42,982 nt of DNA from Alphaproteobacteria bacterium (GTDB lineage Bacteria > Pseudomonadota > Alphaproteobacteria > Thalassobaculales > Thalassobaculaceae), in assembly GCA_013203465.1 (NCBI GenBank), contig JABMNR010000005.1, forward strand, positions 1 to 42,982, given 5' to 3'. Under the pieces are notes generated by a model. It searched no databases, was not told where the DNA came from, and was given only the letters and a program-made list of their open reading frames with translations. Of the stretch, positions 25,136 to 42,982 are shown piece by piece (the stretch's first letter is position 1; every line of letters starts with the position of its first letter). Both the position numbers and the translations under genes were made by a program.

Positions 25136-26869
25136 TTACGCTACCCGGTCGCCCTTCTTGATCTGGGCGGTGCGGTTGTCGACACCGGGCAGCATCTTGG
25201 CCGGATCGCGGGTGACCACCACGTCGAGCACGGTGGGCCGGCCGCTCTCGGCCAGGGCGGCGCGCAGGGCGGGGGCGATGTCCTCGGGCCTCTCGACCCG
25301 GATACCCTTGCAGCCGAACGCCTCCACCACCTTGGCGTAATTGGTCTCGGCGAGGTCGGAGGATTGATAGGCGTCTTGGCCGTACATCAGATGCTGCAGC
25401 GCTTTGACATAGCCCGAGGCGGCGTTGTTGACGACGATCACGGTGAAGGCGAGACCGAGGCGGCGGGCGGTCTCCAGCTCACCCATCACCATGTTGAAGC
25501 CGCCATCGCCGGTCAGCGCCACCACCGGACCCAGCCCGTCATGGGCGGCCCCCAAACAAGCGCCGATGCCGCCCGGCACACCGTAGCCGATCGAGGCGAA
25601 CCCCCGGTCCGGCACGAAGCCGCGCCCGGCCTGCTTGGTGTCGTACAGCAACCCGCCCCAGTGCGCGGCGAAGCCGCCATCGGCGACCAGGGTCGCGTCG
25701 GCCGGCAAGACCTGGTTCAACTCGTGCAGCAGCCGCGCCATGTTGATCGGCGTCTCGTCCGAGGTCAGACGCGGGTCCACATCCTGGCGCCAGACGGCCA
25801 TGCGCGCCGGCACCTGGGCCGCCCAACCGGCCAACTTGTCCTTCAGCCCGGCATCGGCCAAGGCGGCGTGCAGATCCTCGATCCCGGCCTCGGCGTCACC
25901 CCATAGGCTGAGGGCCGGGGTCACCGTACGGCCCATCTCCTCGGCGACGATGTCCAGATGGATCAGGGTCTTACCCTTGGGCGGCACGGAATAGCGCTTG
26001 GTGGCGATCTCGCCGAGCTTGCAGCCGACCACCAGCAGCACGTCGGCCTCGTCGATCAGGCCGTTGGCGATCCGGTCGTAGCGGCCGAACAACCCGGCCG
26101 ACAGCGGGCTGGTGCAGGCGATCGCCCCCTTGCCGCTCATGGTGTGAGCAACCGGGATGTTGTTCGCCTCGGCGAAGGCGGTGATGGCGCCCGAGGCGCG
26201 GCTGATGTGCACGCCGCCGCCGCACAGCAGCATCGGCCGCTCGGCCGCGCGCAGCATATCGGCGGCGGTGTCGATGCCGGTGGCGCTGGGCCGCGCCCGC
26301 AGCGCCGGGGCGGCCCGGTGGATCGGATCGACGACGAAATCCTCGTCCTCGAACGGATAGGTCGCGTGGCAGATGTCCTCCGGCAGATCGAGCACCACCG
26401 GCCCCGGCCGGCCACTGGTGGCAACCGCGAAGGCCCGGCGCACCAGCTCGGGAATGCGCTCGATGTACTCGACCCGGATCACCTCCTTGGTCGCCGGACG
26501 CAGGATATCGAGCTGCCGGCTTTCCTGGGTCATGTTCTTCCAGGAGTGCAGGCGGTGACTGTCGCCAACGATCGCCACGATGGGAATGCCGGCGTTCAGG
26601 CTCTCGACCAGTGCGGTCACCAGATTGGTCGCCCCCGGACCGAGCGTCGCGTCGACCACGCCGACCCGGCCGGTCACCTTGGCGTAGGCGTCGGCGGCGA
26701 AGGCACCGCAACGCTCGTCATTGATCAGATAATGCTTGAGCCCCAGCCGCCGGACGGCGTCATAGAACGGCAGAAGCTGGAACCCTCCCATGCCGAACAT
26801 CGGCCCGATCTCGTACGCCCGCAGCATCCGGGCAAGCGCTTCGCCGCCGGTCATCTCGTTGCTTGCCAT
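25136..26869 (-). CDS. Thiamine-diphosphate-dependent enzyme, acetolactate-synthase-like
   Basis: 577 aa with the three-domain layout of the POX/AHAS family. The N-terminal Pyr domain has DERCGAFAADAYAKVTG, whose Glu should activate the cofactor, and TLGPGATNLVTAL. The central domain is followed by the PP domain with GDGGFNMVMGELETARRLGLAFTVIVVNN, the GDG-x(about 25)-NN ThDP motif. True biosynthetic IlvB is a different branch, and there is no IlvN small subunit next to it, so a catabolic 2-oxoacid decarboxylase or synthase is more likely. GAGGG at four bases supports the start. Last gene of a three-gene minus-strand operon with two E1 subunits. Confidence 0.85.
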   Translation of the reverse strand: MASNEMTGGEALARMLRAYEIGPMFGMGGFQLLPFYDAVRRLGLKHYLINDERCGAFAADAYAKVTGRVGVVDATLGPGATNLVTALVESLNAGIPIVAIVGDSHRLHSWKNMTQESRQLDILRPATKEVIRVEYIERIPELVRRAFAVATSGRPGPVVLDLPEDICHATYPFEDEDFVVDPIHRAAPALRARPSATGIDTAADMLRAAERPMLLCGGGVHISRASGAITAFAEANNIPVAHTMSGKGAIACTSPLSAGLFGRYDRIANGLIDEADVLLVVGCKLGEIATKRYSVPPKGKTLIHLDIVAEEMGRTVTPALSLWGDAEAGIEDLHAALADAGLKDKLAGWAAQVPARMAVWRQDVDPRLTSDETPINMARLLHELNQVLPADATLVADGGFAAHWGGLLYDTKQAGRGFVPDRGFASIGYGVPGGIGACLGAAHDGLGPVVALTGDGGFNMVMGELETARRLGLAFTVIVVNNAASGYVKALQHLMYGQDAYQSSDLAETNYAKVVEAFGCKGIRVERPEDIAPALRAALAESGRPTVLDVVVTRDPAKMLPGVDNRTAQIKKGDRVA

Positions 26870-26907
26870 GATTCCCTCTTTCCCGTCCCGGCTAAGGTGC
26901 CGATGTC

Positions 26908-27879
26908 TTACTGTTGCACCAACGTCCTGGCCATCTCGGCGATCTTCGCCGGCGTGACGCGCAGCATGTCCTCCAGCGGCGGCGCGTAGGCGATCGGCAC
27001 GCGCGGGCTGCCGAGCCGCTTGACCGGGGCTTTCAATTTGCCGAACAGGGCGTCCGCCACGGTCGCCGCCACCTCGGCGCCGAAGCCGCCAACCTGCACG
27101 CTTTCATGCGCCACGATCAGCCGGCCGGTCTTCTCGACGCTGGCGAACACCGCCCGCTTATCCCACGGCCACAGCGTGCGAAGATCGATGACCTCGGCTT
27201 CTATCCCCTCACTCGCCAGGCTCTCCGCCGCCTCGGTCGCGGCGTGCACGGTGGCGGACCACGAGACGATCGTCACGTCGGTCCCCGCACGCGCGATCCG
27301 CGCCACGCCGAACGGGATAGGGTCCCCGTCCGGCACCTCGCCTTCGAGCGCCCACAGGTTCTTGTGCTCCATGTAAACCACGGGATCGTCCGAGCGAATC
27401 GCGGTCTTGAGCAGCCCCCGGTTGTCATGCGGCGTCGCTGGACAGACGACGACCAGACCCGGGATGTGAGTGTACCAGCTCTCCAGCGATTGGCTGTGCT
27501 GAGCGGCGGAGGAGCGCCACATGCCCATGGGTTCGCGGACCACCAGCGGCACCTTGGTCTGACCGCCGAACATATAGCGCGCCTTGGCCGCTTGGTTGAC
27601 CAGCTCGTCGACGGCGCACAGCGCGAAATCGGCGAACCGCATCTCGACCACCGGCCGGGTGCCGGTCATCGCCGCGCCCACCGCCGCGCCGAGGATCGCC
27701 GCCTCGGAAATCGGCGCGTCGGAGATGCGTTGCGGGCCGAATTCCTCCGGCAGGCCCTTGTATTGCCCGAACACCCCGCCCCGGCCGAGATCCTCGCCCA
27801 GGCACCAGACCAGCGGATCGCGACGCATTTCCTCGGCCAGGGTGGTCTTGGCGGCGTCGGCATAGGTCATGACCGCCAT
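26908..27879 (-). CDS. 2-oxoacid dehydrogenase E1 component, beta subunit (PDH/acetoin DH-like)
   Basis: 323 aa. GEDLGRGGVFGQYKGL, RISDAPISEAAILGAAVGAA, RFADFALCAVDELVNQAAK and RSSAAQHSQSLESWYTHIPGL are the hallmarks of E1 beta of pyruvate/branched-chain/acetoin dehydrogenases, where the beta subunit completes the ThDP site of the alpha subunit. GGAGG seven bases before the ATG supports this start, which overlaps the alpha-subunit stop by one base. No E2 acyltransferase or E3 dehydrogenase is in view, so the physiological 2-oxoacid and acceptor remain unknown. Confidence 0.93.
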   Translation of the reverse strand: MAVMTYADAAKTTLAEEMRRDPLVWCLGEDLGRGGVFGQYKGLPEEFGPQRISDAPISEAAILGAAVGAAMTGTRPVVEMRFADFALCAVDELVNQAAKARYMFGGQTKVPLVVREPMGMWRSSAAQHSQSLESWYTHIPGLVVVCPATPHDNRGLLKTAIRSDDPVVYMEHKNLWALEGEVPDGDPIPFGVARIARAGTDVTIVSWSATVHAATEAAESLASEGIEAEVIDLRTLWPWDKRAVFASVEKTGRLIVAHESVQVGGFGAEVAATVADALFGKLKAPVKRLGSPRVPIAYAPPLEDMLRVTPAKIAEMARTLVQQ

Positions 27880-28883
27880 CAGAACGCCTCCACGCGTGGG
27901 TCGCCGGCGTCCTGCACGTCCTCATACCCCCGGCTCAGCGGCGGCCAGGGTGCCGCCTTGGCCTCGGTGTAGACCGCATCCATCTCCTGTTTCGCCGCGC
28001 GCTCGTTCTCGGCCAGATCGGCGCCACGGACACCGGCATCGGCCAGCATCTGGGCCAGCTTGGCGATCGGGTCGCGGCGCCACGCCGCCTCGACCTCGTC
28101 CGGCGCGCGATAGGTCGCGGGATCGGCGGCGGTGTGCCCGGTCAGCCGGTAGGTCTCGGCGACGATGAACCGTGGCCCACCACCGCCTCGGATCGCCGAC
28201 ACCGCGTCGGCCACCGCCTCATCGACCGCCAGGACGTCGTTACCGTCGACCTCGACCGAGGGAATACCCAGCGCCTCGGCCCGCGCCGCCGCGCCCGGCC
28301 CGGCGGTCATCGCGGCGGTGCGGGTGGTCGAGGCGTAGCCGTTGTCCTCGCACACGTACAACGCGGGAAGCACGAATACCTTGGCCCAGTTCAATCCCTC
28401 CAGGAACGGCCCCCGGTTGATCGCGCCATCGCCAAAGATCGAACAGGCGATCCGGTCCTCGCCACGCAGCTTGATGGCATGCGCGGCGCCGGCGGTGATG
28501 TGAATGTTGGCGGCCACCACCCCATTGGCGCCCAGCATGCCGACCTTGAAATCGGCGATGTGCATCGACCCGCCCTTGCCATGGCTGTTGCCGCCCTCGC
28601 GGCCCAACAGCTCGCGCATCATGGCCCCGGCGTCCGCACCCTTGGCCAGGGTGTGACCGTGCCCCCGGTGGGTCGAGGTCAGGATATCGTCGCGCCGCAG
28701 GTTGGAGCAGACGCCGACGGCGATCCCCTCCTGGCCGATCGACGGGTGAATGGCGCCGAGCACCAGCTTCTCGGTATTGGCCTGCAGCGCCGCTTCCTCG
28801 AACGCCCGAATACGCCACATCAGCCGATGGTGGCCAAGCAGACGATCGACATCGAGATTGCGCGCGGTTTTGCTGGCGGACAC
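27879..28883 (-). CDS. 2-oxoacid dehydrogenase E1 component, alpha subunit (PDH/acetoin DH-like)
   Basis: 334 aa. HPSIGQEGIAVGVCSNLRRDD, HRGHGHTLAKG, GKGGSMHIADF and the ThDP motif GDGAINRGPFLEGLNWAKV with its closing EDN are typical of E1 alpha, close to AcoA/PdhA. YRLTGHTAADPATYR matches the usual regulatory-loop region. The start is the GTG at 28883, five bases after GGAGGAG; the open frame further upstream is not family-like. First gene of the operon, transcribed from a TTGACC-N18-TAGACT promoter at 28946-28975. Confidence 0.92.
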   Translation of the reverse strand: MSASKTARNLDVDRLLGHHRLMWRIRAFEEAALQANTEKLVLGAIHPSIGQEGIAVGVCSNLRRDDILTSTHRGHGHTLAKGADAGAMMRELLGREGGNSHGKGGSMHIADFKVGMLGANGVVAANIHITAGAAHAIKLRGEDRIACSIFGDGAINRGPFLEGLNWAKVFVLPALYVCEDNGYASTTRTAAMTAGPGAAARAEALGIPSVEVDGNDVLAVDEAVADAVSAIRGGGGPRFIVAETYRLTGHTAADPATYRAPDEVEAAWRRDPIAKLAQMLADAGVRGADLAENERAAKQEMDAVYTEAKAAPWPPLSRGYEDVQDAGDPRVEAF

Positions 28884-28945
28884 GGGCACTCCTCCCTGAA
28901 GGCCCGACTTGCGTGTTGATTTTCTAGCGGGTCGCGGGCGGGCGA

Positions 28946-28975
28946 AGTCTAGGGAGAGGCGAGTCACCGGGTCAA
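28946..28975 (-). promoter_or_regulatory. Sigma-70-type promoter of the E1 alpha/beta operon
   Basis: On the minus strand, -35 TTGACC (28975-28970), an 18-base spacer and -10 TAGACT (28951-28946). The predicted start is near 28939, leaving a leader of about 56 bases to the GTG of the alpha subunit. No operator-like repeat is evident beside it. Confidence 0.55.
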
Positions 28976-29058
28976 GACAACGGCGGCGTCGACAAACACC
29001 CATATTGGCGCTATCACCCGCGCGCCCGACGTCGGCCCATCCGCCGCAGGAGTCCACC

Positions 29059-29616
29059 ATGCGCAGCGCCACCACTGAACGCACCGCCCTGTTCTCCGGC
29101 ATGATCGCCATCGGTCTTGTCGTCCTGGTGTCCAACATCGCGGTCGGCTATCCGATCAACGACTGGCTGACCTGGGGAGCGCTGAGCTATCCGCTGGCGT
29201 TCCTGGTGACCGATTTGACCAACCGAATCCTCGGCGTGACGTCGGCTCGGCGGGTGGTCTATGTCGGTTTCGCGGTCGGCGTGGCGCTGTCGCTGTATTT
29301 CGCAGACCTGCGCATCGCCGTTGCCAGCGGTACGGCCTTCCTGCTCGCCCAGTTGCTGGACATCTGGCTGTTCGACAAGCTGCGCCGTCAGGTGTGGTGG
29401 AAGGCGCCGCTGGTGTCTTCGATCCTCGCCTCGGCGCTGGACACCGCGATCTTCTTCGCCGCCGCCTTCGCCTTCACCGACCTGCCGTGGGTGACCTGGG
29501 CGATCGGCGATTACGGCGCCAAGCTGGCGATGGCGGCGCTCCTGCTGCTGCCGTTCCGGGTGTTCATCGCTACCTTGCCCGCCGAGTGGCAGAGGCCGCG
29601 CGCCGCCGAGAGCTGA
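29059..29616 (+). CDS. yhhQ: YhhQ/VUT-family queuosine precursor transporter
   Basis: 185 aa integral inner-membrane protein with about five to six hydrophobic helices. [23 protein letters not shown] is the conserved loop of the VUT (DUF165) family. E. coli YhhQ imports preQ0, and relatives take up preQ1 or other queuosine precursors. The ATG has AGGAG six bases upstream. It heads a run of four queuosine genes, which makes the assignment firm. No preQ1 riboswitch was recognised in the 175 bases upstream. Confidence 0.9.
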
Positions 29617-29632: not shown

Positions 29633-30670
29633 ATGCGCGTCGAGCTGTTCGACTACCCCCTGCCCGAGGAGCGGATCGCCCAGCACCCCGCGAGCCCCCG
29701 GGATTCGGCGCGGCTGCTGGATCTGACGACCGGCGGTTTGACCGATCGGACGATCCGCGACCTCCCCAACCTCCTACGGCCGGGTGATCTGCTGATCTCC
29801 AACGACACCCGGGTCATCCCGGCCCGGCTGACCGGTCGGCGCGGGACGGCCAAGGTCGAGGCGACGTTGCACAAGCGCGACGGCGCCGACACGTGGCGCG
29901 CCTTTGCCCGGCCGGCCAAGAAGCTGCGGATTGGTGATCGTATCGATTGGGTGGACGGGTTCTCCGCCGACGTCGCCGCGAAGGGCGAGGCGGGCGAGGT
30001 CACCTTGACCTTCAACCACGCGGATGCGGATTTGATGGCCGCCCTGCACGCACACGGCGTGATGCCGTTGCCGCCCTACATCAAGCGGCCGGCGGGTGCG
30101 GACGCCGACGACGCGCGCGACTATCAAACCATGTTCGCCGCCCGCGAGGGGGCGGTCGCGGCTCCGACGGCCGGGTTGCACTTCACACCTGACCTGCTGG
30201 CGCGGATCGAGGCACGCGGTGTACGACATGTATTGGTGACCCTGCATGTCGGTGCCGGCACCTTCTTGCCGGTCAAGGCCGGCAACACCGACGATCACGC
30301 AATGCACACGGAGTGGGGCGAGGTGCCGGCCGAGACCGCGGCGGCGATCGCCGCAACCCGCGCGGCGGGCGGGCGCATCGTCGCCATCGGCACCACCACG
30401 CTGCGGGTGCTGGAGGCGGCGGCGCGCGACGACGGCACCGTGCCGGCCTGGAGCGGCGAGACCGATCTGTTCATCACCCCCGGCTATCGGTTCAAGGTGA
30501 TCGATCTGCTGCTGACCAATTTTCACCTGCCCCGGTCGACCTTGCTCATGCTGGTATCGGCGTTTTCCGGGCGCGAGCGAATCTTGGCGGCCTACGACCA
30601 CGCGATCCGGACGGGGTATCGTTTCTTCTCCTACGGAGACGCCTGTTTGTTGGAGCGCACTGAGCAATGA
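29633..30670 (+). CDS. queA: QueA, S-adenosylmethionine:tRNA ribosyltransferase-isomerase
   Basis: 345 aa, full length. The N-terminus [18 protein letters not shown], then [35 protein letters not shown] and the C-terminal [16 protein letters not shown] are diagnostic. QueA transfers the ribosyl part of SAM to preQ1-modified tRNA, forming epoxyqueuosine at position 34. It follows the transporter by 16 bases and overlaps tgt by four bases (ATGA), so it is translationally coupled. Confidence 0.97.
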
Positions 30671-31791
30671 CCATCGGCTTCGAGAGCTGGGCGCGGGATG
30701 GCGCGGCGCGGCGCGGGCGGCTGACCCTGGCCCATGGCACGGTGGAGACACCGGCGTTCATGCCCGTCGGCACCGCCGCCACCGTCAAGGCCATGCGCCC
30801 GGAAGCGGTGGCCGAGACCGGGGCCGAGATCGTGCTCGGCAACACCTATCACCTGATGTTGCGGCCGACGGCCGAGCGTATCGCCGCGCTGGGTGGGCTG
30901 CACCGGTTCATGAACTGGTCCAAGCCGATCCTGACCGACAGCGGCGGCTTTCAGGTCATGTCGCTCGCCGGTCGCCGTGAACTCGACGCCGATGGGGTGA
31001 CCTTCCAAAGCCATATCGACGGCAGCAAGCATCGGCTGACCCCGGAACGCTCGATCGAGATTCAACACCTGCTTGGCGCCGACATCACCATGGCGTTCGA
31101 CGAATGCACCCCACATCCCGCCACCCATGAGGCGGCGGCGGACTCCATGCGGCTGTCGATGCGCTGGGCCGAGCGCTCGAAGACCGCGTTCGTCGAGCGC
31201 GACGGACACGGTTTGTTCGGCATCGTGCAGGGCAGTGTCTATGACGATTTTCGGCGGGAGTCGGCCGAACTCCTGACAAGCATCGGCTTCGACGGTTACG
31301 CGATCGGGGGATTGGCGGTCGGCGAGGGGCAGGAGGAGATGTTCCGCGTGCTCGACGTCACGGTGCCGCATCTGCCCGATGACCGGCCGCGCTATCTGAT
31401 GGGGGTGGGGAAACCGGCCGATCTGGTCGGCGCCGTGCTGCGCGGGATCGACATGTTCGACTGCGTGCTGCCGAGCCGCTCCGGGCGGACCGCGCAGGCC
31501 CAGAGCCGGCGCGGTGCGATCAACCTGCGCAACGCCCGCCACGCCGCCGACCCGCGGCCTCTCGACCCGGACTGCGCCTGCCCGGCCTGCACCGGCTATA
31601 GCCGCGCGTATCTGCATCATTTGACCAAGGCGGGTGAAATCCTCGGCCCGATGCTGCTGACCTGGCACAACCTGCACTACTATCAGGAGCTGATGGCCGG
31701 GTTGCGGTCGGCAATCGAAGCGGGGCGGCTGGCGGATTTCGCTGCCGGCTTCCACGCGCAGCAGGCGGCGGGCGATCTGCCGCCTCTCTAG
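30667..31791 (+). CDS. tgt: Tgt, tRNA-guanine transglycosylase
   Basis: 374 aa, complete. [33 protein letters not shown] with the general-base Asp, GGLAVGEG, and [17 protein letters not shown] with the nucleophile Asp are all present. The zinc site [17 protein letters not shown] plus a later His closes the C-terminus. It exchanges guanine-34 for preQ1 in tRNA Asp, Asn, His and Tyr. Overlaps queA by four bases. Confidence 0.98.
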
Positions 31792-31809
31792 GAACGGCCT
31801 AGGAGCGGC

Positions 31810-32928
31810 ATGGATCCGACAACACGCATCAAGGACCGAGCACTGGCCGAGGGGTTCGACGCGGTCGGTATCACGACGGCGGAGATCGGCGTCCGTGAGC
31901 AGGCGCGGCTGGACGCCTTCGTGTCAGGCGGCGAGCATGGCGAGATGGCCTGGATGGCCGACACGCTGGCACGGCGGCGTGATCCCCGGGTCCTGTGGCC
32001 CGAGGCACGCAGCGTGATCGTCTGCGCCGCCAATTACGGCCCCGACCACGATCCGATCGACGATCTCGAACAATCGGACCGGGGTGCGATTGCCGTCTAC
32101 GCACGGAACAAGGACTATCACGACCTGTTGAAGAAACGGCTGAAACGCCTCGCCCGATGGATGCACCAGGAGCTGGGTGCCGAGGTCAAGGTGTTCATCG
32201 ATACCGCCCCGGTGCTGGAAAAGCCGCTGGCGACGCGCGCCGGAATCGGCTGGCAAGGCAAGCACACCAATCTGGTCAGCCGGGAATGGGGCTCGTGGCT
32301 GTTCCTGGGCGAGGTCTTCACCACGCTGGAGCTGACACCCGCTGCGCCGGAGGTCGACCATTGCGGCTCCTGCCGACGTTGCCTTGATGTCTGCCCGACC
32401 GACGCGTTTCCAACGCCCTACACCCTCGATGCCCGGCGTTGCATCAGCTATCTGACGATCGAGCACAAGGGGCCGATCCCGGCCGAGTTCCGCGAGGCGA
32501 TCGGCAACCGGATCTACGGCTGCGACGACTGCCTCGCGGTGTGCCCGTGGAACAAATTCGCCGCGCGGACCGAGGAGGTGGCGTTCGTCGCCCGCGATGA
32601 TTTGACCCTGCCGCTGCTCACCGAGCTTGTGGCCCTCGATGACACCGGGTTTCGCGACCGCTTTCGCGGCTCCCCCATCAAACGGACCGGACGCGACCGC
32701 TTCGTGCGCAACGAGCTGATCGCGCTGGGCAACAGCGGCGATGCGTGCGCGATCTCTCTTGTCGAGGCGCTGCTGGACGACGCGAGCCCGCTGGTGCGTG
32801 GCATGGCGGTGTGGGCGCTGGCTCGCCTCGGTCCGGCGCGGCTTGCACACCACGACACGCAGCGCGCAAACGAAACCGACGACCATGTCCGCGCCGAATG
32901 GCGCACCGCCCTGGGAGAACCCCGATGA
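31810..32928 (+). CDS. queG: QueG, epoxyqueuosine reductase
   Basis: 372 aa. After the N-terminal cobalamin-binding reductase domain ([28 protein letters not shown], then [19 protein letters not shown]) two [4Fe-4S] motifs follow, [16 protein letters not shown] and [11 protein letters not shown]. The C-terminal part is HEAT-like. QueG makes the last step, epoxyqueuosine to queuosine in tRNA. A gap of 18 bases separates it from tgt, and it overlaps queF by four bases. Confidence 0.96.
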
Positions 32929-33421: not shown

Positions 33422-34267
33422 ATGATACTCTCCAATATGTTGTGGTCATTTCGGATCAGACGGCGATCGGGGATTGCTGTCGCGGTTATCGCTGCCTTAG
33501 CCGTCTTGAATTTGACCAAGGCAAGCGATCTCATCGCGGTCGTCTGCACCGGCGCTGGCTACGACCGACTCTGCGAGGATCGCGAAATCGATAAGGAGTT
33601 CTGCGTCGCCTATGCAGCTGGCGACATGGGCAAGGCGGCGGAACGCGTGCGCCTCTTGCGCAATCCTCACGCGGTGCTGCCCACGGCGCATATGACCGCG
33701 TGCCGCTGGCTCGACGCCGGCGAACGGGATGCCGCACGGGAACTGCTCAACCAAGCGCTCGACAACACGGTCGTTGACATCACCAAGACCGAGCGGAGTG
33801 CCGGAGCGCTCACCCTGATTGCCGACGCGGCGCGTCTGCAAATCGCCGCCGAACTAATCAGCGACGCCGAGCGTACGATGAATGCCTTTGCCTGGATTGC
33901 CGACAGCTTTGCACCGACGGAGGAAGCGTTGCTGGCGCGGGCGATCGCGGCACGCGACTTCGCGGCGATCGGAGAGATCAGCCGGGCCAATGCCTTGTTA
34001 GACAAAGCCGCTGCCACAATAGACCAGGTCGCGGAGGTGAACGGCGTCCGCCCCGCTCGGTATCAGGCCGCATTCATGCTCACCCAGCTCGCCGCGGAAG
34101 CGGGACGATGGGAACGAGCCGAGGTGTTCCTCGAACGTCTGGATGCCGAATCGCCGATCATCGACAGCCTCGACCTCCCCGTCGCCGACCGCGACGCCAT
34201 CCGCCGTTCGGAACGCTGGTTGGCCGACGTTATCGCGACGCGCGTCTTCATAGCTCCTGCCAATTAA
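33422..34267 (+). CDS. Exported helical (TPR-like) protein of unknown function
   Basis: 281 aa. A basic N-terminus and one hydrophobic stretch (IAVAVIAALAVLNLTKA) make a signal peptide or anchor. The rest is almost entirely helical and Ala/Glu-rich, with segments such as AAERVRLLRNPHA, ERDAARELLNQALDN and AGRWERAEVFLERLDAES that look like degenerate TPR or Sel1-type repeats. Four cysteines lie shortly after the signal. It follows queF by 29 bases on the same strand but has no evident link to queuosine. No specific family recognised. Confidence 0.65.
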   Translation: MILSNMLWSFRIRRRSGIAVAVIAALAVLNLTKASDLIAVVCTGAGYDRLCEDREIDKEFCVAYAAGDMGKAAERVRLLRNPHAVLPTAHMTACRWLDAGERDAARELLNQALDNTVVDITKTERSAGALTLIADAARLQIAAELISDAERTMNAFAWIADSFAPTEEALLARAIAARDFAAIGEISRANALLDKAAATIDQVAEVNGVRPARYQAAFMLTQLAAEAGRWERAEVFLERLDAESPIIDSLDLPVADRDAIRRSERWLADVIATRVFIAPAN

Positions 34268-34337
34268 TATCCGCCCCCTGGACCCGCCCCATGCCGACCG
34301 TCAAGATGCGGTGTGCATCTATGGGGAACACGCGGAC

Positions 34338-35147
34338 ATGACGGATCTACCCGCTGGCGTCGTCGCGGCCGACACGGTCACTAGACCGACCGACATGTGG
34401 CACGGCGCCGTGCTGATCGCGGCGTCTCATGGCGGCGTTTATGCCGCCTATTGCGCGGTCAAGGCCGGGGTGCGGGGGGTGATCCTGAACGACGCCGGGC
34501 GCGGCAAGGATGACGCCGGCATCGGCGGCGGTGCCTATTGCGCCGCGCTTGGCATTCCCTACGCCGCCGTCGACACCCGTAGCGCGCGGATCGGCAACGG
34601 CGACAGCATGGCGTCGGAAGGCATCATCTCCTTCGCCAACCCGGTCGCCGAAGCCGCGGGGGTACGGTCAGGGATGGCGTCCGTCGAGGCGGCGCAGCGG
34701 ATGCTGGCCGCTCCCCTCTCCGACAAGCCGGTGCCGCACTACGACGAGGCGCGCACCGAGCTTGCTCCGGGGCCAAGCGGTCGGCGGATTATCCTGATGG
34801 ACTCGATCTCGCTGGCCGGCGACCAGGACATCGGCCAGGTCATCATCTCCGGCAGCCATGGCGGCATCCTGGGCCTGGAGAAGAAAGCGGCACTGAAGAT
34901 CGACGGCTACGCCGCCTTCTTCAACGACGCCGGCGAGAGCAAGGACGGGGCCGGGTGGACCCGCCTGCCGGCGCTGGACGAACGCGAGATCGCGGCGGGG
35001 ACGGTCGCGGCGATGAGTGCCAGGATCGGCGACGGCCGCTCGACCTACGAGGATGGGGTGTTGAGTCGTGTGAATGAGACGGCGATACGCTTGGGTGGTG
35101 TGATCGGCATGCGCCTCAAGGACTTCGCCAACAGCCTGATCGTATGA
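34338..35147 (+). CDS. Internally duplicated SHGG/NDAG protein of unknown function
   Basis: 269 aa made of two similar halves. SHGG at 30-33 and 163-166, NDAG at 51-54 and 186-189, and SARIG at 82-86 and 217-221 repeat with a period of 133-135 residues. KDxAG after each NDAG and a closing G-x3-GM are also shared. Ser/His, Asp and Lys conserved in both halves could form paired active or ligand sites, but I know no assigned function. No signal peptide. I prefer the ATG at 34338; a GTG nine codons upstream is possible. It heads a same-strand run with FAH, barrel, HyuA and HyuB genes, so a role in ring-compound or lactam catabolism is inferred. Confidence 0.75.
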   Translation: MTDLPAGVVAADTVTRPTDMWHGAVLIAASHGGVYAAYCAVKAGVRGVILNDAGRGKDDAGIGGGAYCAALGIPYAAVDTRSARIGNGDSMASEGIISFANPVAEAAGVRSGMASVEAAQRMLAAPLSDKPVPHYDEARTELAPGPSGRRIILMDSISLAGDQDIGQVIISGSHGGILGLEKKAALKIDGYAAFFNDAGESKDGAGWTRLPALDEREIAAGTVAAMSARIGDGRSTYEDGVLSRVNETAIRLGGVIGMRLKDFANSLIV

Positions 35148-35160
35148 GGGAGGGGATTCC

Positions 35161-36039
35161 GTGAAACTCGCCAGCTTCACCACTGACGGCCGTACCCGGA
35201 TCGGCGTCGTCGAGTACGAACGGATCGCCGATCCGTGCGCGGTCGACCCTTCGATCCCGACGGATATGACTGAATTCTTGACCGCCGGAGCCAAGGCGCG
35301 GACGGCCCTGGACGCAGCACTCCGTTCGGCCCCACGCCGGCCGCTGGCCGAGGTGACGCTGGGAGCACCGGTGCCGCGCCCCGGAAAATTCCTGGCGGTC
35401 GGGCTGAACTACGCCGATCACATCAAGGAATTGGGTGCCGCCACGCCGCAATTCCCGTCAACTTTCGCTAAGATGTCGAGCTGTATCACCGGGCCCTACG
35501 ACCCGGTGCACCGGCCCCGGGTGTCGGATTCCATGGACTACGAAGGGGAGCTTGGCTTGGTGATTGGCCGGCGCTGCCGCCATGTGCCGAAAGAGCGCGC
35601 GCTGGAGGTGGTCGCCGGCTACGTGGTGGTGAACGACCTGACGGTACGGGAGTGGGTCGGGCTGACCCCGCAGGTGGTGATCCCCAAAAGCTTCGACACC
35701 CATGGCCCGTTCGGCCCGTGGCTGACCACCGCCGACGAGGTTCCCGATCCTCAAGCATTGAGCGTCAAGACCACGGTAAACGGCGAGGTGCGGCAAAATT
35801 CCTCGACCGCCGAGATGATCTTCTCCTGCGCCGATCTGATCGCGCTGCTAAGCCAGGCGGTGACGCTGGAACCCGGCGACATCATCACCACCGGCACACC
35901 GCCCGGCGTCGGCGAGGGTTTTACGCCGAAACGCTACCTTCAGCCCGGCGATGTGGTTCGCGTTGAGATCGACGGGCTTGGCGCGATCGAGAACCGGGTG
36001 ATCGCCGAGCCGGATGACACCGCTTTCATCGACACCTGA
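35161..36039 (+). CDS. Fumarylacetoacetate hydrolase (FAH) family protein
   Basis: 292 aa. AVGLNYADHIKELG, the metal-ligand segment SMDYEGELGLVIGRRCRHV, VVNDLTVRE, KSFDTHGPFGPW and ITTGTPPGVGEGF are the usual landmarks of the FAH superfamily, whose members hydrolyse or decarboxylate 2-oxo/1,3-diketo acids with Mg2+. The GTG start is preceded by GGGAGGGG at five bases. The substrate cannot be fixed. Placed between the SHGG protein and the hyu genes, it probably handles a ring-opened intermediate. Confidence 0.9.
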   Translation: MKLASFTTDGRTRIGVVEYERIADPCAVDPSIPTDMTEFLTAGAKARTALDAALRSAPRRPLAEVTLGAPVPRPGKFLAVGLNYADHIKELGAATPQFPSTFAKMSSCITGPYDPVHRPRVSDSMDYEGELGLVIGRRCRHVPKERALEVVAGYVVVNDLTVREWVGLTPQVVIPKSFDTHGPFGPWLTTADEVPDPQALSVKTTVNGEVRQNSSTAEMIFSCADLIALLSQAVTLEPGDIITTGTPPGVGEGFTPKRYLQPGDVVRVEIDGLGAIENRVIAEPDDTAFIDT

Positions 36040-36059
36040 ACGACCGAACGGAGAGAACC

Positions 36060-36746
36060 ATGGGATTGCTCGGAACCGGCATGCTGCTGACCTTCACCGA
36101 AGTCGCCGACGTCGACGAGGAAGAGTTCAACGAGTGGTACAATCGCGAGCATATCGACGAGCGCGTGTTCATGCCCGGCTTCAAACGCGCGCGGCGTTAT
36201 CTCGCGGCCGACACCCAAACGAAGGTCAAGTACTTCGCGTCCTACGAGACCGAGAAGGTCACCGATCTCTCTGACCCGGAATACATGAAGCTGCTGGGCG
36301 ACCAGTCGCCGTGGTCGAAGAAGGTAATGGCCACGTTCACCTATTTCGACCGGCTGACCCTGACCTGCACCGTCGACCTCTGCCATGGTGTGGCGGGTGC
36401 GGCCGGATTGGCGCGGTTCACCGTCGCCGACAAGCACGCCGAGGGTCTGCGGGCGTCGCTGCGCGACCGCGTCTTGCCGGAGATCGTCAAGCGGCCCGGT
36501 ATGCTGGGCGCCTGTCTGCTTGAGAATGATCTCGGTGTGATGAACGAAGGGATGAAGGCACAGGGGCGTCCGATCCCCGACCAGCAACCGATCGAATGGG
36601 TGGTGATCCTTGACACCATGACGCCCGACATCGCGCGATCGGCACTGGCGGAAGGTTTTGGCAACGACGCGTTGGCATCCCTGGGCGTGGCAAGCGACGC
36701 GATTGAGACCGGCGCCTATAGCTTCATCTTCGGCAACCAGCGCTGA
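36060..36746 (+). CDS. Two-module dimeric alpha-beta barrel-like protein (DUF4286/EthD-like)
   Basis: 228 aa. The first half has FTEVADVDEEEFNEWYNREHIDERVFMPGFKRARRY, the pattern of small ferredoxin-like alpha-beta barrel proteins. The second half repeats the logic in LRDRVLPEIVKRPGMLGACLLEND. A tandem of two such modules in one chain replaces the usual dimer. Relatives include degradative or binding proteins with varied activities, so no reaction is assigned. GGAGAG four bases before the ATG fixes the start. It lies 20 bases after the FAH gene and 9 bases before hyuA. Confidence 0.75.
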   Translation: MGLLGTGMLLTFTEVADVDEEEFNEWYNREHIDERVFMPGFKRARRYLAADTQTKVKYFASYETEKVTDLSDPEYMKLLGDQSPWSKKVMATFTYFDRLTLTCTVDLCHGVAGAAGLARFTVADKHAEGLRASLRDRVLPEIVKRPGMLGACLLENDLGVMNEGMKAQGRPIPDQQPIEWVVILDTMTPDIARSALAEGFGNDALASLGVASDAIETGAYSFIFGNQR

Positions 36747-36755
36747 CGGACGGTC

Positions 36756-38807
36756 ATGGGTTGGCTCATCGGGGTCGATGTCGGCGGCACCTTCACGGAT
36801 TTCTACGCTATCGACCGAGCAACCGGCGCCATAGCGATTCACAAGACCCCATCCACTCCGGCGAACCCTGCCGACGCCATCCTTGCTGGTTTGGATGTGC
36901 TCAGCACGACCCACGGCATCCCGGCCGGTGCGATCGAGCGGCTGGCTCATGGCACGACGGTGGCGACCAACACGCTTTTGCAGCGCAAGGGCGCGCCGGT
37001 GGCGCTGATCACCACCGAGGGGTTTCGTGACTTGCTGGAGATCGGCCGCCAGATCCGGCCGAAAATGTTCGACCTGAAGGCCGACGCGCCACCTCCGTTG
37101 GTCCCCCGCGAACACCGCTTCGAGGTACGCGAGCGGATGACCGCCCGGGGCACCGCGCTGGTCGAGCTTGAAGACGCCGCGATCGACGCCGCGATCGACC
37201 AAGTGGCGGCGTCGGGTGCCGAAGCTTGTGCCGTGTGCTTGTTGTTCGCGTTCCTGAACCCCGTTCACGAACGCCGGATCGGCGCGCGGCTGGCCGAACG
37301 GCTGCCGGGGGTTTCGGTCTCGCTGTCCAGCGCAGTGCAGCCAGAATTCCGCGAGTACGAGCGCTTCTCAACCACCGCGCTGAACGCCTATCTACAACCG
37401 GTGATCGGCCGGTACATGCTCCGGCTCGGCCAAGAACTGACAAAGCGCGCACCGAATGCCCGGCTGGGCATCAACCAATCGAGCGGTGGGCTCATGTCGG
37501 TGGAGCGGGCGGCTGATTTTCCGGTTCGAACCGCCTTGTCCGGTCCGGCGGCCGGCGCCATAGGAGCCGCGCATGTGGCGACGCTTTCCGGCCATCCCGA
37601 TGTGATTACCCTCGACATGGGAGGTACCAGCGCCGACGTCGCGCTCATTCGCGGGTTCGAGGCGGAGATCGGCTTTGGCCGCGAGGTCGCGGGTTTCCCA
37701 GTGCGCCTGCCGATCGTTGACGTGCACACGGTAGGGGCCGGCGGCGGTTCGATTGCTTGGTTCGAACGCGACGGCTTGCTGAAGGTCGGGCCGATCTCAG
37801 CCGGCGCCGAGCCCGGGCCTGCGTGCTATGGCCGTGGCGGGATCGAGGCCACCGTGTCCGACGCCAATCTGATCCTCGGCCGGCTGTCGAGCACGCTGAT
37901 CGGCGGGGCGATAACACTGGACCCCGCGGCGGCGCGAGCGGCGGTGCAACCAATCGCCGCGCGGCTCGGCTTCTCCATCGAAGCGACGGCGGAGGGAATC
38001 CTCGGGATCGTCACCGCCAATATGGTCCGGGCCATCCGCACCGTCTCGATCGAACGCGGGCATGATCCACGCGACTTCGTGTTGATGCCGTTCGGCGGCG
38101 CCGGGGCGTTGCATGCCGGTGAGGTCGCCCGCGCGCTCGACATGACCACGATCATCGTGCCACCGGCGCCCGGTATCCTCTGCGCCCAAGGTCTTGTGGT
38201 CTCGGATCTCAAGGAGGATTTCGTAACGACCACCCGGATGGCATTCGAGCCGGGCAATCGGCAGGCCATCGAGAGTGTCATCGCCAGCTTGAACCGCGAA
38301 GCCCAGGCATGGTTCACCGTGGAGCCGGTACCGGCCGAGCGCCGCCGCCTGCGGCTGGCGATCGACCTGCGTTACATTGGCCAGAATTTCGAGCTCACCG
38401 TCCCCATCGCGCAGACCGGAGGCGCCTCACCAGCACTGCCCGACGTCGAGACCGTGCGACGGCAGTTCTTTGAGATTCATGAAAAGACCTATGGTCACTT
38501 CACACCGGACGATCCGATTGAAACCATGAATTTCCGGCTGACCGCCCTTGGTGAGACCGACCGGTTGCCGCCGCCCTCCACTGATACCACCGCAAGGCGC
38601 ACGCTGACCGCCATGAGCCGGCGCGACGTTTGGTTCGACGACGCCTACCGAACCACCCCGGTCTACGATCGATCGATGCTGATCCCCGGCCAAGCGTTCG
38701 ACGGTCCCGCGATCGTCGAGCAGCTGGACGCCACCACGGTGATCCATCCGGGCGATAGCGTCGGCGTTGATACCGCCCTCAATCTGGTCGTGGAGATCGC
38801 CCGATGA
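36756..38807 (+). CDS. hyuA: HyuA, hydantoinase/oxoprolinase subunit A
   Basis: 683 aa. GVDVGGTFTDF at the N-terminus is the ATP-binding phosphate loop of the acetate-kinase/Hsp70-like fold, and TLDMGGTSADVALI is the second phosphate motif. ANTLLQRKGAPVALITTEGFRDLLEIGRQ and GAGGGSIAWFERDGLLKVGPISAGAEPGPACYGRGG are family signatures. HyuA-type subunits hydrolyse hydantoins, 5-oxoproline or related lactams at the cost of ATP, or carboxylate ketones in related enzymes. Its stop overlaps hyuB by four bases, so the two subunits are co-translated. Substrate unknown. Confidence 0.94.
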   Translation: MGWLIGVDVGGTFTDFYAIDRATGAIAIHKTPSTPANPADAILAGLDVLSTTHGIPAGAIERLAHGTTVATNTLLQRKGAPVALITTEGFRDLLEIGRQIRPKMFDLKADAPPPLVPREHRFEVRERMTARGTALVELEDAAIDAAIDQVAASGAEACAVCLLFAFLNPVHERRIGARLAERLPGVSVSLSSAVQPEFREYERFSTTALNAYLQPVIGRYMLRLGQELTKRAPNARLGINQSSGGLMSVERAADFPVRTALSGPAAGAIGAAHVATLSGHPDVITLDMGGTSADVALIRGFEAEIGFGREVAGFPVRLPIVDVHTVGAGGGSIAWFERDGLLKVGPISAGAEPGPACYGRGGIEATVSDANLILGRLSSTLIGGAITLDPAAARAAVQPIAARLGFSIEATAEGILGIVTANMVRAIRTVSIERGHDPRDFVLMPFGGAGALHAGEVARALDMTTIIVPPAPGILCAQGLVVSDLKEDFVTTTRMAFEPGNRQAIESVIASLNREAQAWFTVEPVPAERRRLRLAIDLRYIGQNFELTVPIAQTGGASPALPDVETVRRQFFEIHEKTYGHFTPDDPIETMNFRLTALGETDRLPPPSTDTTARRTLTAMSRRDVWFDDAYRTTPVYDRSMLIPGQAFDGPAIVEQLDATTVIHPGDSVGVDTALNLVVEIAR

Positions 38808-40501
38808 CCAAGAACCTGGCGCCCGATCCCATAACCACCGAGATCATCTTCAACGCGTTGCAATCGGTCACCGATGAAAGCTTCGTGGCGCTGATGAAGA
38901 GCGCCTATTCGACCAACATCAAGGAACGGCACGATCACTCGACCGCGATCGTCGATCGAGGCGGACGTTTGGTCGTGCAGGCGGCGAATTCGATCCCGGT
39001 CCACATTGCCTCGATGCTGGGGCTGATGCGCACGTTGTTGGCGAAGTATCCGCTGTCCGACATTCACGAAGGCGACGTGTTCTGCGCCAACGACCCCTAC
39101 CATGGAGGCGGTACGCATCTGCCGGATGTCAACATCGCCAGGCCAGTGTTCGTGGACGGCGTTTTGATCGGTTTCGTTTGCAACATCGCCCACCACGCCG
39201 ATATCGGCGGGATGAGCCCTGGCTCAATGGCCGGCGGCATGACGGAGATCTATCAAGAAGGTTTGCGGATACCAGTGGTCAAGCTGTTCCGTCATGGCCA
39301 GATCGACCAGGATTTGTTCGATCTGATCCTGCTGAACGTGCGAGTCGTGGAGGAGCGGCGCGGCGATTACAACGCGCAGTTCGCCGCCTTGCGTCTGGCC
39401 CATCGACGTCTGCTTGAGATCGTCGCCAAGAATGGTGTCGACATGGTCACCGCCGTCTTCGCCTCGATCATCGACCGCACTTTCGCCCGCATGAAGACGG
39501 CGATCGCCGGCATTCCCGACGGGACCTATCGGTTCGAGGATGTGTTGGACAATGACGGCGCGGGCACCGACGACGTCAAGATCGCGTTGACCGTGACCGT
39601 CAGAGGTGACGGCGCGGTGTTCGATTTCACCGGCACCGATCGTCAGGTTCCCGGCAACGTGAACATTCCCCTGAACGGCACGATCGCAGCGGTCTGCTAC
39701 GTGGTCAAGGCGATGCTCGACCCCGAGTTACCGAACAATCAGGGGGTCATCGACTCGGTCACCGTGACCGCTCCACCGGGAACGGTGGTGAGCTGCGTAG
39801 CACCCGCCTCCGTCGCCTCACGCGCCCACACCTCGCAGCGGATCATCGACGTGGTGATCGGCGCCCTGGCCGAGGCATTGCCGGACAAGGCCGTGGGGGC
39901 GGCCAACGGTGCCAATTCCATGGCGATCTTCTCCGGAATCCACCCCACTACCGGCCGCCCCTATGTCTATCTGGAAACCCTTGGCGGCGGTTTCGGCGGT
40001 CGAAACGATCGTGACGGCAAGGATGGTGTGCAGGTGCATATCACCAACACCTCCAACCTGCCGATCGAGGCGATCGAGATGGAGTACCCGCTGTTGGTGG
40101 AAGCCTATGGATTGATCGAGGATACCGGTGGCGCCGGCACCTGGCGCGGCGGCATGGGGCTGCGGCGCGTGGTGCGGCCGATGGGTCACGATTGCCTGTT
40201 CACCGGGGTTGGGGAGCGGTTCCGCCACCAGCCCTGGGGTATTTTTGGAGGCGAGCCGGGACGCTCCGGCCGGTTCGCCATCCAAGAAGCCGACGGCACG
40301 GAACGGCCGATGCCGACCAAGTTTGGCGACGCGGTGCTGCGCCATGACCAGAGTGCCGTGATCGAAACCCCCGGCGCCGGCGGCTACGGCCCACCGTCCG
40401 GGCGGTCGGTCGAGAAGCGCGACGAAGATCGGCGTTCCGGCAAGTTCTCCGACGCGTACATGACCAAGCACTATGGAGTAGCGCCCTCCGGCGGCGGCTG
40501 A
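38804..40501 (+). CDS. hyuB: HyuB, hydantoinase/oxoprolinase subunit B
   Basis: 565 aa. DPITTEIIFNALQSVTDE at the N-terminus, HDHSTAIVDRGGRLV, NDPYHGGGTHLPDV and NIAHHADIGGMSPGSM are hallmarks of the B subunit. The C-terminus has GRNDRDGKDGVQVHITNTSNLPIEAIE and the GAGGYG end typical of the family. It forms the heteromeric ATP-dependent hydantoinase/oxoprolinase with HyuA. Last gene of the catabolic run; a strong stem-loop lies about 20 bases downstream. Confidence 0.94.
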   Translation: MTKNLAPDPITTEIIFNALQSVTDESFVALMKSAYSTNIKERHDHSTAIVDRGGRLVVQAANSIPVHIASMLGLMRTLLAKYPLSDIHEGDVFCANDPYHGGGTHLPDVNIARPVFVDGVLIGFVCNIAHHADIGGMSPGSMAGGMTEIYQEGLRIPVVKLFRHGQIDQDLFDLILLNVRVVEERRGDYNAQFAALRLAHRRLLEIVAKNGVDMVTAVFASIIDRTFARMKTAIAGIPDGTYRFEDVLDNDGAGTDDVKIALTVTVRGDGAVFDFTGTDRQVPGNVNIPLNGTIAAVCYVVKAMLDPELPNNQGVIDSVTVTAPPGTVVSCVAPASVASRAHTSQRIIDVVIGALAEALPDKAVGAANGANSMAIFSGIHPTTGRPYVYLETLGGGFGGRNDRDGKDGVQVHITNTSNLPIEAIEMEYPLLVEAYGLIEDTGGAGTWRGGMGLRRVVRPMGHDCLFTGVGERFRHQPWGIFGGEPGRSGRFAIQEADGTERPMPTKFGDAVLRHDQSAVIETPGAGGYGPPSGRSVEKRDEDRRSGKFSDAYMTKHYGVAPSGGG

Positions 40502-40738: not shown

Positions 40739-41119
40739 TCAGTCGTTGCGGAACGTCGACCAGCCGCCGAGGCGGACGGCCCAATACATGACCGTCGCCA
40801 GCCCCGAACGGACACCGCGAGCCTTGAGGGCTTCGAGGAAGATGCGGTCGGCATCGGCCCGGGTGATGGATGGGTGACCGGCGATCGACGCACGGCTGTA
40901 GAGCCAGTCGTGAACGACGGCCGGCTTGGTGTGGTCGCCGTCGCGGCTGACATACCAGCGCGCGAGGCGCGGGATCGACGCGAGGTCGGTCACGAACCCG
41001 GCCGGAACCGTGATCGTGCCGTAACGCCGGGAGATGTAGGTGAACGGCGCCAGAAGCTCCCAAGTCGGGCCGGCGGACTTGCGTGCGTCCAGATGATGCG
41101 GGAAGCGCTCCACACTCAT
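40739..41119 (-). CDS. DUF1353 phage protein
   Basis: 126 aa. TVPAGFVTDLASIPRLARWYV and AVVHDWLYSR, followed by RADADRIFLEALKARGV, are the conserved core of DUF1353, a family found mainly in tailed phages and prophages near tail and lysis genes. Biochemical role unknown; the conserved Asp/His residues suggest a metal or catalytic site. GAGGTG seven bases before the ATG sets the start. It lies just downstream of an intrinsic terminator that closes the tail-gene transcript, so it probably has separate or read-through expression. Confidence 0.85.
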   Translation of the reverse strand: MSVERFPHHLDARKSAGPTWELLAPFTYISRRYGTITVPAGFVTDLASIPRLARWYVSRDGDHTKPAVVHDWLYSRASIAGHPSITRADADRIFLEALKARGVRSGLATVMYWAVRLGGWSTFRND

Positions 41120-41133
41120 GATGTCACCTCATG

Positions 41134-41157
41134 AAAAAACCCCGCTCGACGGCGGGG
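41134..41157 (-). terminator. Intrinsic terminator after the phage tail genes
   Basis: On the minus strand CCCCGC-type arms (41140-41145 with 41152-41157) form a six-base G-C stem with a six-base loop, followed at once by TTTTTT (complement of 41139-41134). Textbook Rho-independent terminator for transcripts coming from the tail genes at higher coordinates. Confidence 0.85.
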
Positions 41158-41190
41158 CGGAGTCAATTCGCTGGATCAGGAACAGGCGTT

Positions 41191-41295
41191 TCACCCAACC
41201 ATGAAGGTATTTCCGATGATCACGCCGCGCTCAGCCCATTGATGCTTGTCAGCGCGCCAGAATGTCACGTTGGCGACAGGTAGAATGCTTCTCAT
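41191..41295 (-). CDS. 34-residue phage ORF
   Basis: 34 aa starting MRSILPVANVTFW and ending NTFMVG. The ATG has AAGGA at about six bases, and the frame ends 34 bases before the intrinsic terminator, so it would be the last gene of the tail transcript. The sequence (aromatic residues, WRADKHQWAERGVIIGN) is not low-complexity. Small genes of this kind are common between tail fibre and lysis genes. No family recognised; the calling rests on ribosome site and position. Confidence 0.5.
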   Translation of the reverse strand: MRSILPVANVTFWRADKHQWAERGVIIGNTFMVG

Positions 41296-41416
41296 GGGTA
41301 GTTCCTTACAAAAACATCTCGCGCGACGAGTAATGAAATTATAGTAACGTAGAAAAATATAAATATAGATATCAAAAATAAATAAAAATCATTTCGTATA
41401 TTTATGTATTTTAAAT

Positions 41417-42103
41417 TCATAACACAGGAGAATTAACATTATCATACCGAGCAACGTTAGATATACGTAATTCCGCAATTTTACCACCTAGATAAAAACT
41501 AGGGTCTGCTGTTCTATTTCCTATGGATGGCTGTTCTGTTCCACCACCTGTATTATTCCCGCTGTTTATACCGGTATCTGAAAGGGTTGAATTAACATAC
41601 AAGTAACCCGCCCCACTTTTCCGCGAAAATGCCAGAAATACCCATTCATTCTGTGGAAATATAATTGTTTTTTGGTAACTGTTTGGCGCAACTCCAGCGC
41701 TTAATTCCACACCAAATATCGCGAGTTCAAGTCCTGGTTGTGGGCCTCCGGCCTTAGTAGTAAAAACATATCTTTGAGATAATCCGCTATAGCTGCTGTC
41801 GAAATACACCCAGCTTTCTATTGTAAAATCCCCAATTCCATATATTGGATTAATCGACGTTCCAAATTTAAAATAATTATTTGAAGAATTAAAACTAAAC
41901 GATTGCGTTGAGTTAAGTCCTTTTTTGGATATTCCAATATTTTCTACCAAAACACTTCCAACTTCTGATAGGGCATAATTACCAGACACATCAATTTTTC
42001 CTTGGTCTGCTATCAACAAAAACTCCGTATTGTCGTCATCAACTAAACTTGTTGTGGCACCATTACTTCCAATCAAACCAAACCGAACCGCGCCAATAGG
42101 CAT
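41417..42103 (-). CDS. AT-rich LamG/concanavalin-like phage tail protein
   Basis: 228 aa. The C-terminal two thirds look like a LamG-type jelly-roll: FTIESWVYFDSSYSG, then NEWVFLAFSRKSGAGYLYVNSTLSDTG, and LGGKIAELRISNVARYD near the end. Such domains in tail proteins bind surface sugars or receptors. The base composition is markedly AT-rich, unlike every other gene in the window, pointing to recent acquisition. The ATG follows AGGAG closely (two bases), a tight spacing. It starts 15 bases after the stop of the tail fibre gene. Confidence 0.72.
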   Translation of the reverse strand: MPIGAVRFGLIGSNGATTSLVDDDNTEFLLIADQGKIDVSGNYALSEVGSVLVENIGISKKGLNSTQSFSFNSSNNYFKFGTSINPIYGIGDFTIESWVYFDSSYSGLSQRYVFTTKAGGPQPGLELAIFGVELSAGVAPNSYQKTIIFPQNEWVFLAFSRKSGAGYLYVNSTLSDTGINSGNNTGGGTEQPSIGNRTADPSFYLGGKIAELRISNVARYDNVNSPVL

Positions 42104-42118
42104 TACATCACTCCTGTA

Positions 42119-42982
42119 TTACGAGAAATGTTGACCAGCAGTGACGCCATACCAAATGATGCCGCCGTCTACAGTCATAAACGTCAGGATATCAATAGCG
42201 CTCGCGGTAGTCGTAAGAGTGGGCGCGGAACCCCCGGCCCATTTGACTGAGGCGGGCCATGTCGTAGTGCGCGACCCCGTGGCGTCTTGTCTCAAGACCA
42301 TCGTCAAACTGCCCGCCGTGCCGCTCGCGGGAGGATTGGAGAACGTGAACGTGCAATTGCCGGTCAGCGTTAACTCGAAGACGTTGCCGTTCTCCAGATC
42401 GACGGTATAAGTCGTCCCGGTATTCGCTTGAATTCGGGTCTCTCCATAATCCTTTAGGACCGACCGAGAGACCACATTGTCCGCCATTGAGACATCACCG
42501 CTCATCGTCAACGCCGTCGCAGACATTGAGCCTGCGTTGGTGATGTTGAACCCACTCGCATCAAGATTACCGCCAAGCGCCGCCGCAGACAGCGTACCAA
42601 TATTGGTGATGTCGAACCCGCCGGCGTTCAGCGGCTCCAGCAATTGAGCCAACTGCATGGAGACGGCGTGCGTGATCACCCAATCCGCCGCGGCGGCTCC
42701 GGCGGCGATCGTCGCGTTGATGGTCAACGTGGTGCCGGTAAAGCTGGTCACCGTGCCGATGGCGTATTTGGCTGTATCGGCGGCACTCGTGACCTTGACC
42801 AGGGCACCATCGGGGATCGGCACGGCCGAGGCGTCCTGATCGGTGGTGAAGATCAGGGTGCCGGCGGCCGGGGTCAGGTTGGTCGCCGAGGTGGCGCCGA
42901 GACCCTTGACGAAGCCGGCGTCGGTGGCGAAGTCCTGAAACATCGCGGGCAGGCCGTTGGCCTCGTCGGCGTAGGCGGTGCC
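42119..42982 (-). CDS. Phage tail fibre-like protein (5' end beyond the window)
   Basis: At least 287 aa; the frame stays open to the window edge, so the true start is outside and the Met near 42943 is probably internal. The middle carries imperfect repeats (GGFDITNIGTLSAAALGG, ASGFNITNAGSMSATALTMSG), a beta-helix-like pattern common in phage fibre shafts. The C-terminal part ends in GGIIWYGVTAGQHFS, resembling fibre tips. Composition is Thr/Ala/Gly-rich with normal G+C. It reads into the LamG-like gene, so the two may build one host-contact structure. Confidence 0.75.
   Translation of the reverse strand, partial: GTAYADEANGLPAMFQDFATDAGFVKGLGATSATNLTPAAGTLIFTTDQDASAVPIPDGALVKVTSAADTAKYAIGTVTSFTGTTLTINATIAAGAAAADWVITHAVSMQLAQLLEPLNAGGFDITNIGTLSAAALGGNLDASGFNITNAGSMSATALTMSGDVSMADNVVSRSVLKDYGETRIQANTGTTYTVDLENGNVFELTLTGNCTFTFSNPPASGTAGSLTMVLRQDATGSRTTTWPASVKWAGGSAPTLTTTASAIDILTFMTVDGGIIWYGVTAGQHFS

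Follow-up and report, generated by a model that had tools for sequence, protein, structure and literature searches.

A duplicated DUF1805-like protein family is linked to thiamine-dependent keto-acid enzymes rather than to ring-opening hydantoinase genes

The window, the whole stretch of 42,982 nucleotides analysed here, carries a five-gene run of open reading frames on the plus strand at 34338-40501, encoding in order the SHGG protein, an FAH hydrolase, a DABB protein, HyuA and HyuB. The SHGG protein bears an SHGG motif in each of its two halves, and comparison of its relatives shows that its family is linked to thiamine-dependent keto-acid enzymes rather than to ring-opening hydantoinase genes. 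The lead to pursue is this linkage, in a duplicated DUF1805-like family that is both widespread and undescribed. The genome that carries the window has its nearest named relatives in Thalassobaculum. The features concerned are as follows.

25136-26869, minus strand: acetolactate-synthase-like (ALS-like) thiamine-diphosphate enzyme (NCBIfam acetolactate-synthase models, below cut-off)
26908-27879, minus strand: E1 beta subunit, pyruvate-dehydrogenase type (NF006667, 335.2 bits, cut-off 321)
27879-29138, minus strand: E1 alpha subunit (TIGR03182 match from residue 100 of 419)
34338-35147, plus strand: SHGG protein, 269 aa, tandem DUF1805-like duplication (open reading frame, homologous halves, AlphaFold pLDDT 97.2)
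34353-34721, plus strand: N-terminal half of the SHGG protein, residues 6-128, with SHGG at 30, NDAG at 51, KDxAG at 57, SARIG at 82 and N101
34776-35144, plus strand: C-terminal half of the SHGG protein, residues 147-269, with SHGG at 173, NDAG at 196, KDxAG at 202, SARIG at 227 and N246
35161-36039, plus strand: FAH-superfamily hydrolase (PF01557, E 2.9e-72)
36060-36746, plus strand: DABB, two-module dimeric alpha-beta-barrel-like protein (AlphaFold pLDDT 87.7, Foldseek)
36756-38807, plus strand: HyuA, hydantoinase/oxoprolinase A family (PF01968, E 4e-92; PF05378, E 2.8e-54)
38804-40501, plus strand: HyuB, hydantoinase/oxoprolinase B family (PF02538, E 5e-181)

The close spacing of the SHGG, FAH, two-module alpha-beta barrel and HyuA/HyuB genes, described in an earlier note made from the sequence alone, is borne out by the position and strand of the reading frames. 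Gaps of 13, 20 and 9 bases separate SHGG from FAH, FAH from DABB and DABB from HyuA, and HyuA overlaps HyuB by 4 bases. An alternative start of the SHGG gene is possible at a GTG at 34311. The genes queA, tgt and queG lie between the thiamine set on the minus strand (25136-29138) and the SHGG operon; they form a queuosine-synthesis cluster (29633-32928, plus strand) just upstream of the operon, and tgt and queG also neighbour the SHGG gene in SAR116-type genomes. A TPR-like protein, poorly conserved among the relatives, is encoded 5' of the SHGG gene at 33422-34267 (plus strand).

A scan of one genome per species, covering 84,980 species, yields at least 138 relatives of the SHGG protein, including those of marine SAR116-type and Thalassobaculum bacteria; despite this number, the protein has no curated family. 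In the 80 loci kept for counts, thiamine-diphosphate enzymes comprise E1 alpha/beta, acetolactate-synthase-like or indolepyruvate oxidoreductase-like (IorAB) proteins. Such an enzyme is encoded at 64 loci, no more than 1 kb away in 60, and none is found within the examined flanks of the other 16. The linkage holds across several gene orders and strands, and thiamine contexts are distributed throughout the SHGG tree, extending to two gammaproteobacterial MAGs. Within the same flanks, Hyu genes occur at 7, FAH at 10 and DABB at 18 of the 80 loci, and the combination of Hyu and DABB seen in the window is limited in the tree to the window's own clade and one further locus (L057). The 11 control stretches used to gauge how often thiamine enzymes lie nearby as background, all from this order and each with HyuA or DABB at its centre, contain no E1 or ALS-like matches. 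Because Hyu genes accompany so few loci compared with thiamine enzymes, the hydantoin/lactam reading does not generalise, and the tie to hydantoinase/FAH ring opening proposed in the earlier note finds no support among the relatives, which mostly lack hyuAB and FAH, an outcome that the note itself had named as refuting.

Within the order, the SHGG gene is present in 22 of 36 genomes, its absences being scattered across several genera. The E1-beta orthologue is found in the same 22 genomes (22/22 versus 0/14), and the ALS-like orthologue in 21 of the 22, against 1 of the 14 without the SHGG gene. Fisher p-values for association with the SHGG gene are 2.6e-10 for E1-beta and 8e-8 for the ALS-like enzyme, and 0.02-0.03 for HyuA and 0.003 for DABB, all of which overstate independence because the 36 genomes are related. 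HyuA orthologues with approximately 61-64% identity occur in three genomes lacking the SHGG gene (G008, G010 and G032), in other surroundings. Of the overall picture first drawn from the sequence, the conserved, undescribed, duplicated protein stands, whereas its tie to Hyu/FAH ring opening is not supported: the thiamine set tracks the protein, and HyuA persists without it. The hydantoin-route reading thus has at most partial support. The exact match in distribution with the E1/ALS-like set makes the SHGG protein and the thiamine enzymes testable together.

The thiamine set of the window falls within the superfamilies of pyruvate-dehydrogenase-type E1 and acetolactate-synthase-like enzymes, but differs from the named enzymes in missing the equivalog cut-offs for acetolactate synthase, glyoxylate carboligase, Xsc and E1 alpha. 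The ALS-like enzyme scores 363.5 bits against TIGR00118 (acetolactate synthase large subunit; cut-off 538) and 237.4 bits against the Xsc model TIGR03457 (cut-off 676). The E1 beta subunit exceeds the cut-off of NF006667, a subfamily model that does not fix the substrate, and the E1 alpha subunit stays under the curated pyruvate dehydrogenase E1 alpha equivalog cut-off. Judging from where the TIGR03182 match begins, the true E1 alpha start probably lies about 80-90 codons inside the longest open reading frame. The ALS-like protein is 85-87% identical to its orthologues in Thalassobaculum-type genomes, yet remains under every curated equivalog cut-off. In SAR116-type and related genomes (L168-L172), its gene is found elsewhere, immediately following those for succinate dehydrogenase (sdhCDAB), for which Pfam identifies SdhA, SdhB and a membrane subunit in L171 and SdhA in L172.

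The SHGG protein consists of two homologous halves, as had been read from its repeated motifs. Comparison of the two half-profiles gives a probability of 100 and an E-value of 4.4e-42 over 118 columns with 31% identity, and local alignment scores 121 against 33 ± 6 for 1000 shuffles, approximately 15 standard deviations above and far beyond chance. Predicted secondary-structure elements follow the same order in the N- and C-terminal halves. The motifs repeat at 143-145 residues, correcting the earlier figure of about 134, and the earlier observation that polar motifs are conserved in both halves holds, each half retaining the S, H, D, R and N residues. Residues S30, H31, G32, A53, G54, N101, S173, H174, G175, D197 and N246 are invariant, D52, R84 and R229 are nearly so, and almost every member retains E137, R139 and D155, polar positions near the linker. 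Two genomes from farther away in the phylum encode single-domain relatives of 130-134 aa that align with either half, so the SHGG protein seems to have arisen by duplication and fusion.

The SHGG protein exceeds the cut-off of no Pfam or NCBIfam model, and all annotated plasmid relatives are labelled 'hypothetical protein', in agreement with the initial description of the protein as one of unknown function. Profile searches among sequences of solved structures return no relatives, the protein is absent from the phage records searched, and a literature search on DUF1805, YunC/TA1206 and OiaX/OiaK returns nothing on it. Against DUF1805 (PF08827), a family without known function, the window protein scores 14.2 bits where the curated threshold is 29.5 bits, and so falls outside the curated membership. 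Among 43 relatives, 38 match the same model below cut-off, with a best E-value of 1e-6. The relatives in which the matches were placed score 13.5-24.7 bits, and the matches are located in either half.

An AlphaFold model built on the 43 relatives reaches a mean pLDDT of 97.2. In structural realignment with VIA-align, its C-terminal half superposes on 1qw2 (TA1206), itself a functionally uncharacterised DUF1805 protein, at a Z-score of 8.3 and 3.1 Å over 95 of 102 residues, the top row though near the stated noise level; the runner-up reaches 5.3. The partial 1qw2 sequence scores 73.6 bits to DUF1805, and a presumed YunC sequence 93 bits. A Foldseek search of the model against the PDB yields nothing at an E-value of 0.001 or better, so the kinship with 1qw2 is drawn from VIA-align together with the Pfam and profile matches. 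By position, the SHGG motif seems to correspond to the GSKGY loop of TA1206. Recurrent Pfam matches to IMS (DNA polymerase IV) cover one helical segment of roughly 35-60 residues, set within another fold, and are treated as local resemblance, and weak Rossmann, PA-domain and peptidase rows of the realignment, with Z-scores of 5.3 and below, are set aside. The description that fits the SHGG protein best is two domains of about 120 aa, distantly related to DUF1805 and fused to each other. Weak profile matches in both halves connect it with DUF1805, and the predicted fold of its C-terminal half may be the same. Unlike DUF1805, it scores below the cut-off, contains two fused copies with an additional conserved NDAG and KDxAG stretch, and sits in catabolic operons.

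More distant relatives occupy other surroundings. In haloarchaea, where they are located on plasmids, the SHGG-type gene is followed by a RuBisCO-like gene nearest to OiaX and a kinase gene nearest to OiaK, usually with VOC and SDR genes and in several cases a phosphogluconate-dehydrogenase C-terminal protein; the same core set is present in a more distant alphaproteobacterial genome (G229). These neighbours of haloarchaeal and rhizobial relatives recall OiaX/OiaK catabolism of 3-oxo-isoapionate, but stay under the curated cut-offs (OiaX-like 515 and 454 of 700, OiaK-like 441 and 536 of 700), and the window has neither gene. In a paralogue of the SHGG protein, a carboxymuconolactone-decarboxylase-family (CMD) domain either forms part of the same chain or is encoded ahead of it. 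In Rhodococcus, genes for a thiolase, a crotonase, an AMP-binding enzyme and a ChsH2-like OB-fold protein come after that of the relative. In both Rhizobium and Rhodococcus, distant relatives neighbour genes of acyl-CoA and aromatic catabolism, and the chemistry of the whole family may therefore be broader. The thread common to these contexts appears to be catabolism through keto acids and decarboxylation, not through cyclic amides.

The SHGG protein is tentatively proposed, at a likelihood slightly short of even, to be a small-molecule enzyme or substrate-binding accessory in a 2-oxoacid (keto-acid/acyloin) catabolic module built on thiamine-diphosphate enzymes, namely E1 alpha/beta and the ALS-like enzyme. 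We infer an enzymatic activity, a keto-acid substrate and an isomerase type of reaction; isomerase or tautomerase activity as such is a guess. Each half would contribute its own S-H-G, N-D-A-G, S-A-R-I-G and N residues, and the two sets would make up either two pseudo-symmetric pockets or one pocket at the pseudo-dimer interface. Arg and Asn would grip the substrate carbonyl, with His and Asp shuttling a proton beside it. Keto-acid isomers or enol/keto forms would thereby be interconverted, allowing the decarboxylating thiamine partner to act.

It is unlikely that the SHGG protein instead has no catalytic role and, as a subunit or a ligand sensor, governs the regulation or assembly of the E1/ALS enzymes in the manner of acetolactate-synthase regulatory subunits. 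Its adjacency to and co-occurrence with the thiamine enzymes would agree with such a role, and the residues conserved in both halves could fit ligand binding; nevertheless, Pfam, NCBIfam and structural realignment reveal no likeness to known ACT-type regulatory subunits, some relatives adjoin RuBisCO-like or CMD genes in place of thiamine enzymes, and in several genomes the ALS-like gene lies apart, after sdhCDAB. A hydrolase or lactonase acting on lactones of sugar acids or keto acids, in place of an isomerase, is decidedly improbable. On paper, the conserved Ser-His-Gly of the two halves looks like a hydrolytic site, and the haloarchaeal relatives sit in an OiaX/OiaK-like sugar-acid operon, but no alpha/beta-hydrolase or lactonase family is matched at cut-off, no fold match is significant, and DUF1805 proteins are not known to have hydrolase activity.

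Extended beyond the window, the keto-acid proposal would make the SHGG protein the founder of an undescribed isomerisation/tautomerisation (or related) family feeding thiamine-diphosphate or RuBisCO-like decarboxylating enzymes in Alphaproteobacteria, some Gammaproteobacteria and haloarchaea, with the first DUF1805 chemistry; this larger claim is speculative and rather doubtful. It could yield a first function for DUF1805, a family with a solved structure (1qw2).

The remaining genes of the operon are assigned at the superfamily level. FAH exceeds the PF01557 cut-off with 243 bits, reaches 229.8 of 500 for the 2,4-didehydro-3-deoxy-L-rhamnonate hydrolase equivalog, and directly follows the SHGG gene in no locus other than the window and those of two close relatives. 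The earlier reading of DABB as a two-module alpha-beta barrel agrees with its predicted structure, which comprises two ferredoxin-like alpha-beta modules and matches two-module DABB proteins such as the anthrone-oxidase-like 5f9p (Foldseek E 4e-10); within the Thalassobaculum/SAR116-like clade, the DABB and SHGG genes are neighbours. HyuA and HyuB exceed the Pfam cut-offs for Hydantoinase_A and Hydantoinase_B (309 and 603 bits) and belong to the caprolactamase CapAB/hydantoinase-oxoprolinase superfamily, caprolactamase being the nearest curated model. Assignment as CapAB itself is rejected, the NCBIfam equivalog scores being 532.9 and 289.9 bits against a cut-off of 1000 each. The SHGG protein, in contrast, is unrelated to this superfamily and usually occurs without it.

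That the five genes form a pathway opening a lactam, hydantoin or similar ring, with the SHGG protein among its enzymes, is very improbable: the tight HyuA/HyuB operon in the window and five named relatives, with HyuA intact or partial downstream, and caprolactamase alpha as the closest curated model for HyuA speak for it, whereas the scarcity of Hyu genes among the loci of relatives, two close relatives (L051 and L052) in which HyuAB is missing from beside a retained set of SHGG gene, FAH and DABB, the HyuA orthologues in genomes lacking the SHGG gene, and the wide shortfall from the CapA/CapB cut-offs speak against it. HyuAB and FAH are best read as lineage-specific operon partners of the SHGG gene, which in the window's lineage would have come to head an operon with DABB, HyuAB and, in three genomes, FAH. 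This is a local arrangement rather than a family-defining context, and within this one lineage the SHGG protein could still act in the same pathway as HyuAB.

Several minor features accompany these loci. Directly after the operon, 40739-42982 (minus strand) encodes DUF1353, Laminin_G_3 (concanavalin-like) and tail-fibre-like proteins and appears to be what is left of a prophage or gene-transfer agent. At one locus (L086:3-3203), the acylating sulfoacetaldehyde dehydrogenase SauS, above its curated cut-off, precedes the SHGG gene, with succinate-CoA-ligase-like subunits adjoining; a sulfonate link of the family is possible through this locus. In Reyranella-type loci, among them L123 (5921-6205), the SHGG gene is often flanked on one side by IorAB and on the other by a free-standing biotin/lipoyl carrier domain (94 aa) that touches or overlaps it. 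A membrane dipeptidase (M19) gene adjoins the SHGG gene in L073 (9817-10827) and L075, and lies farther off in L079.
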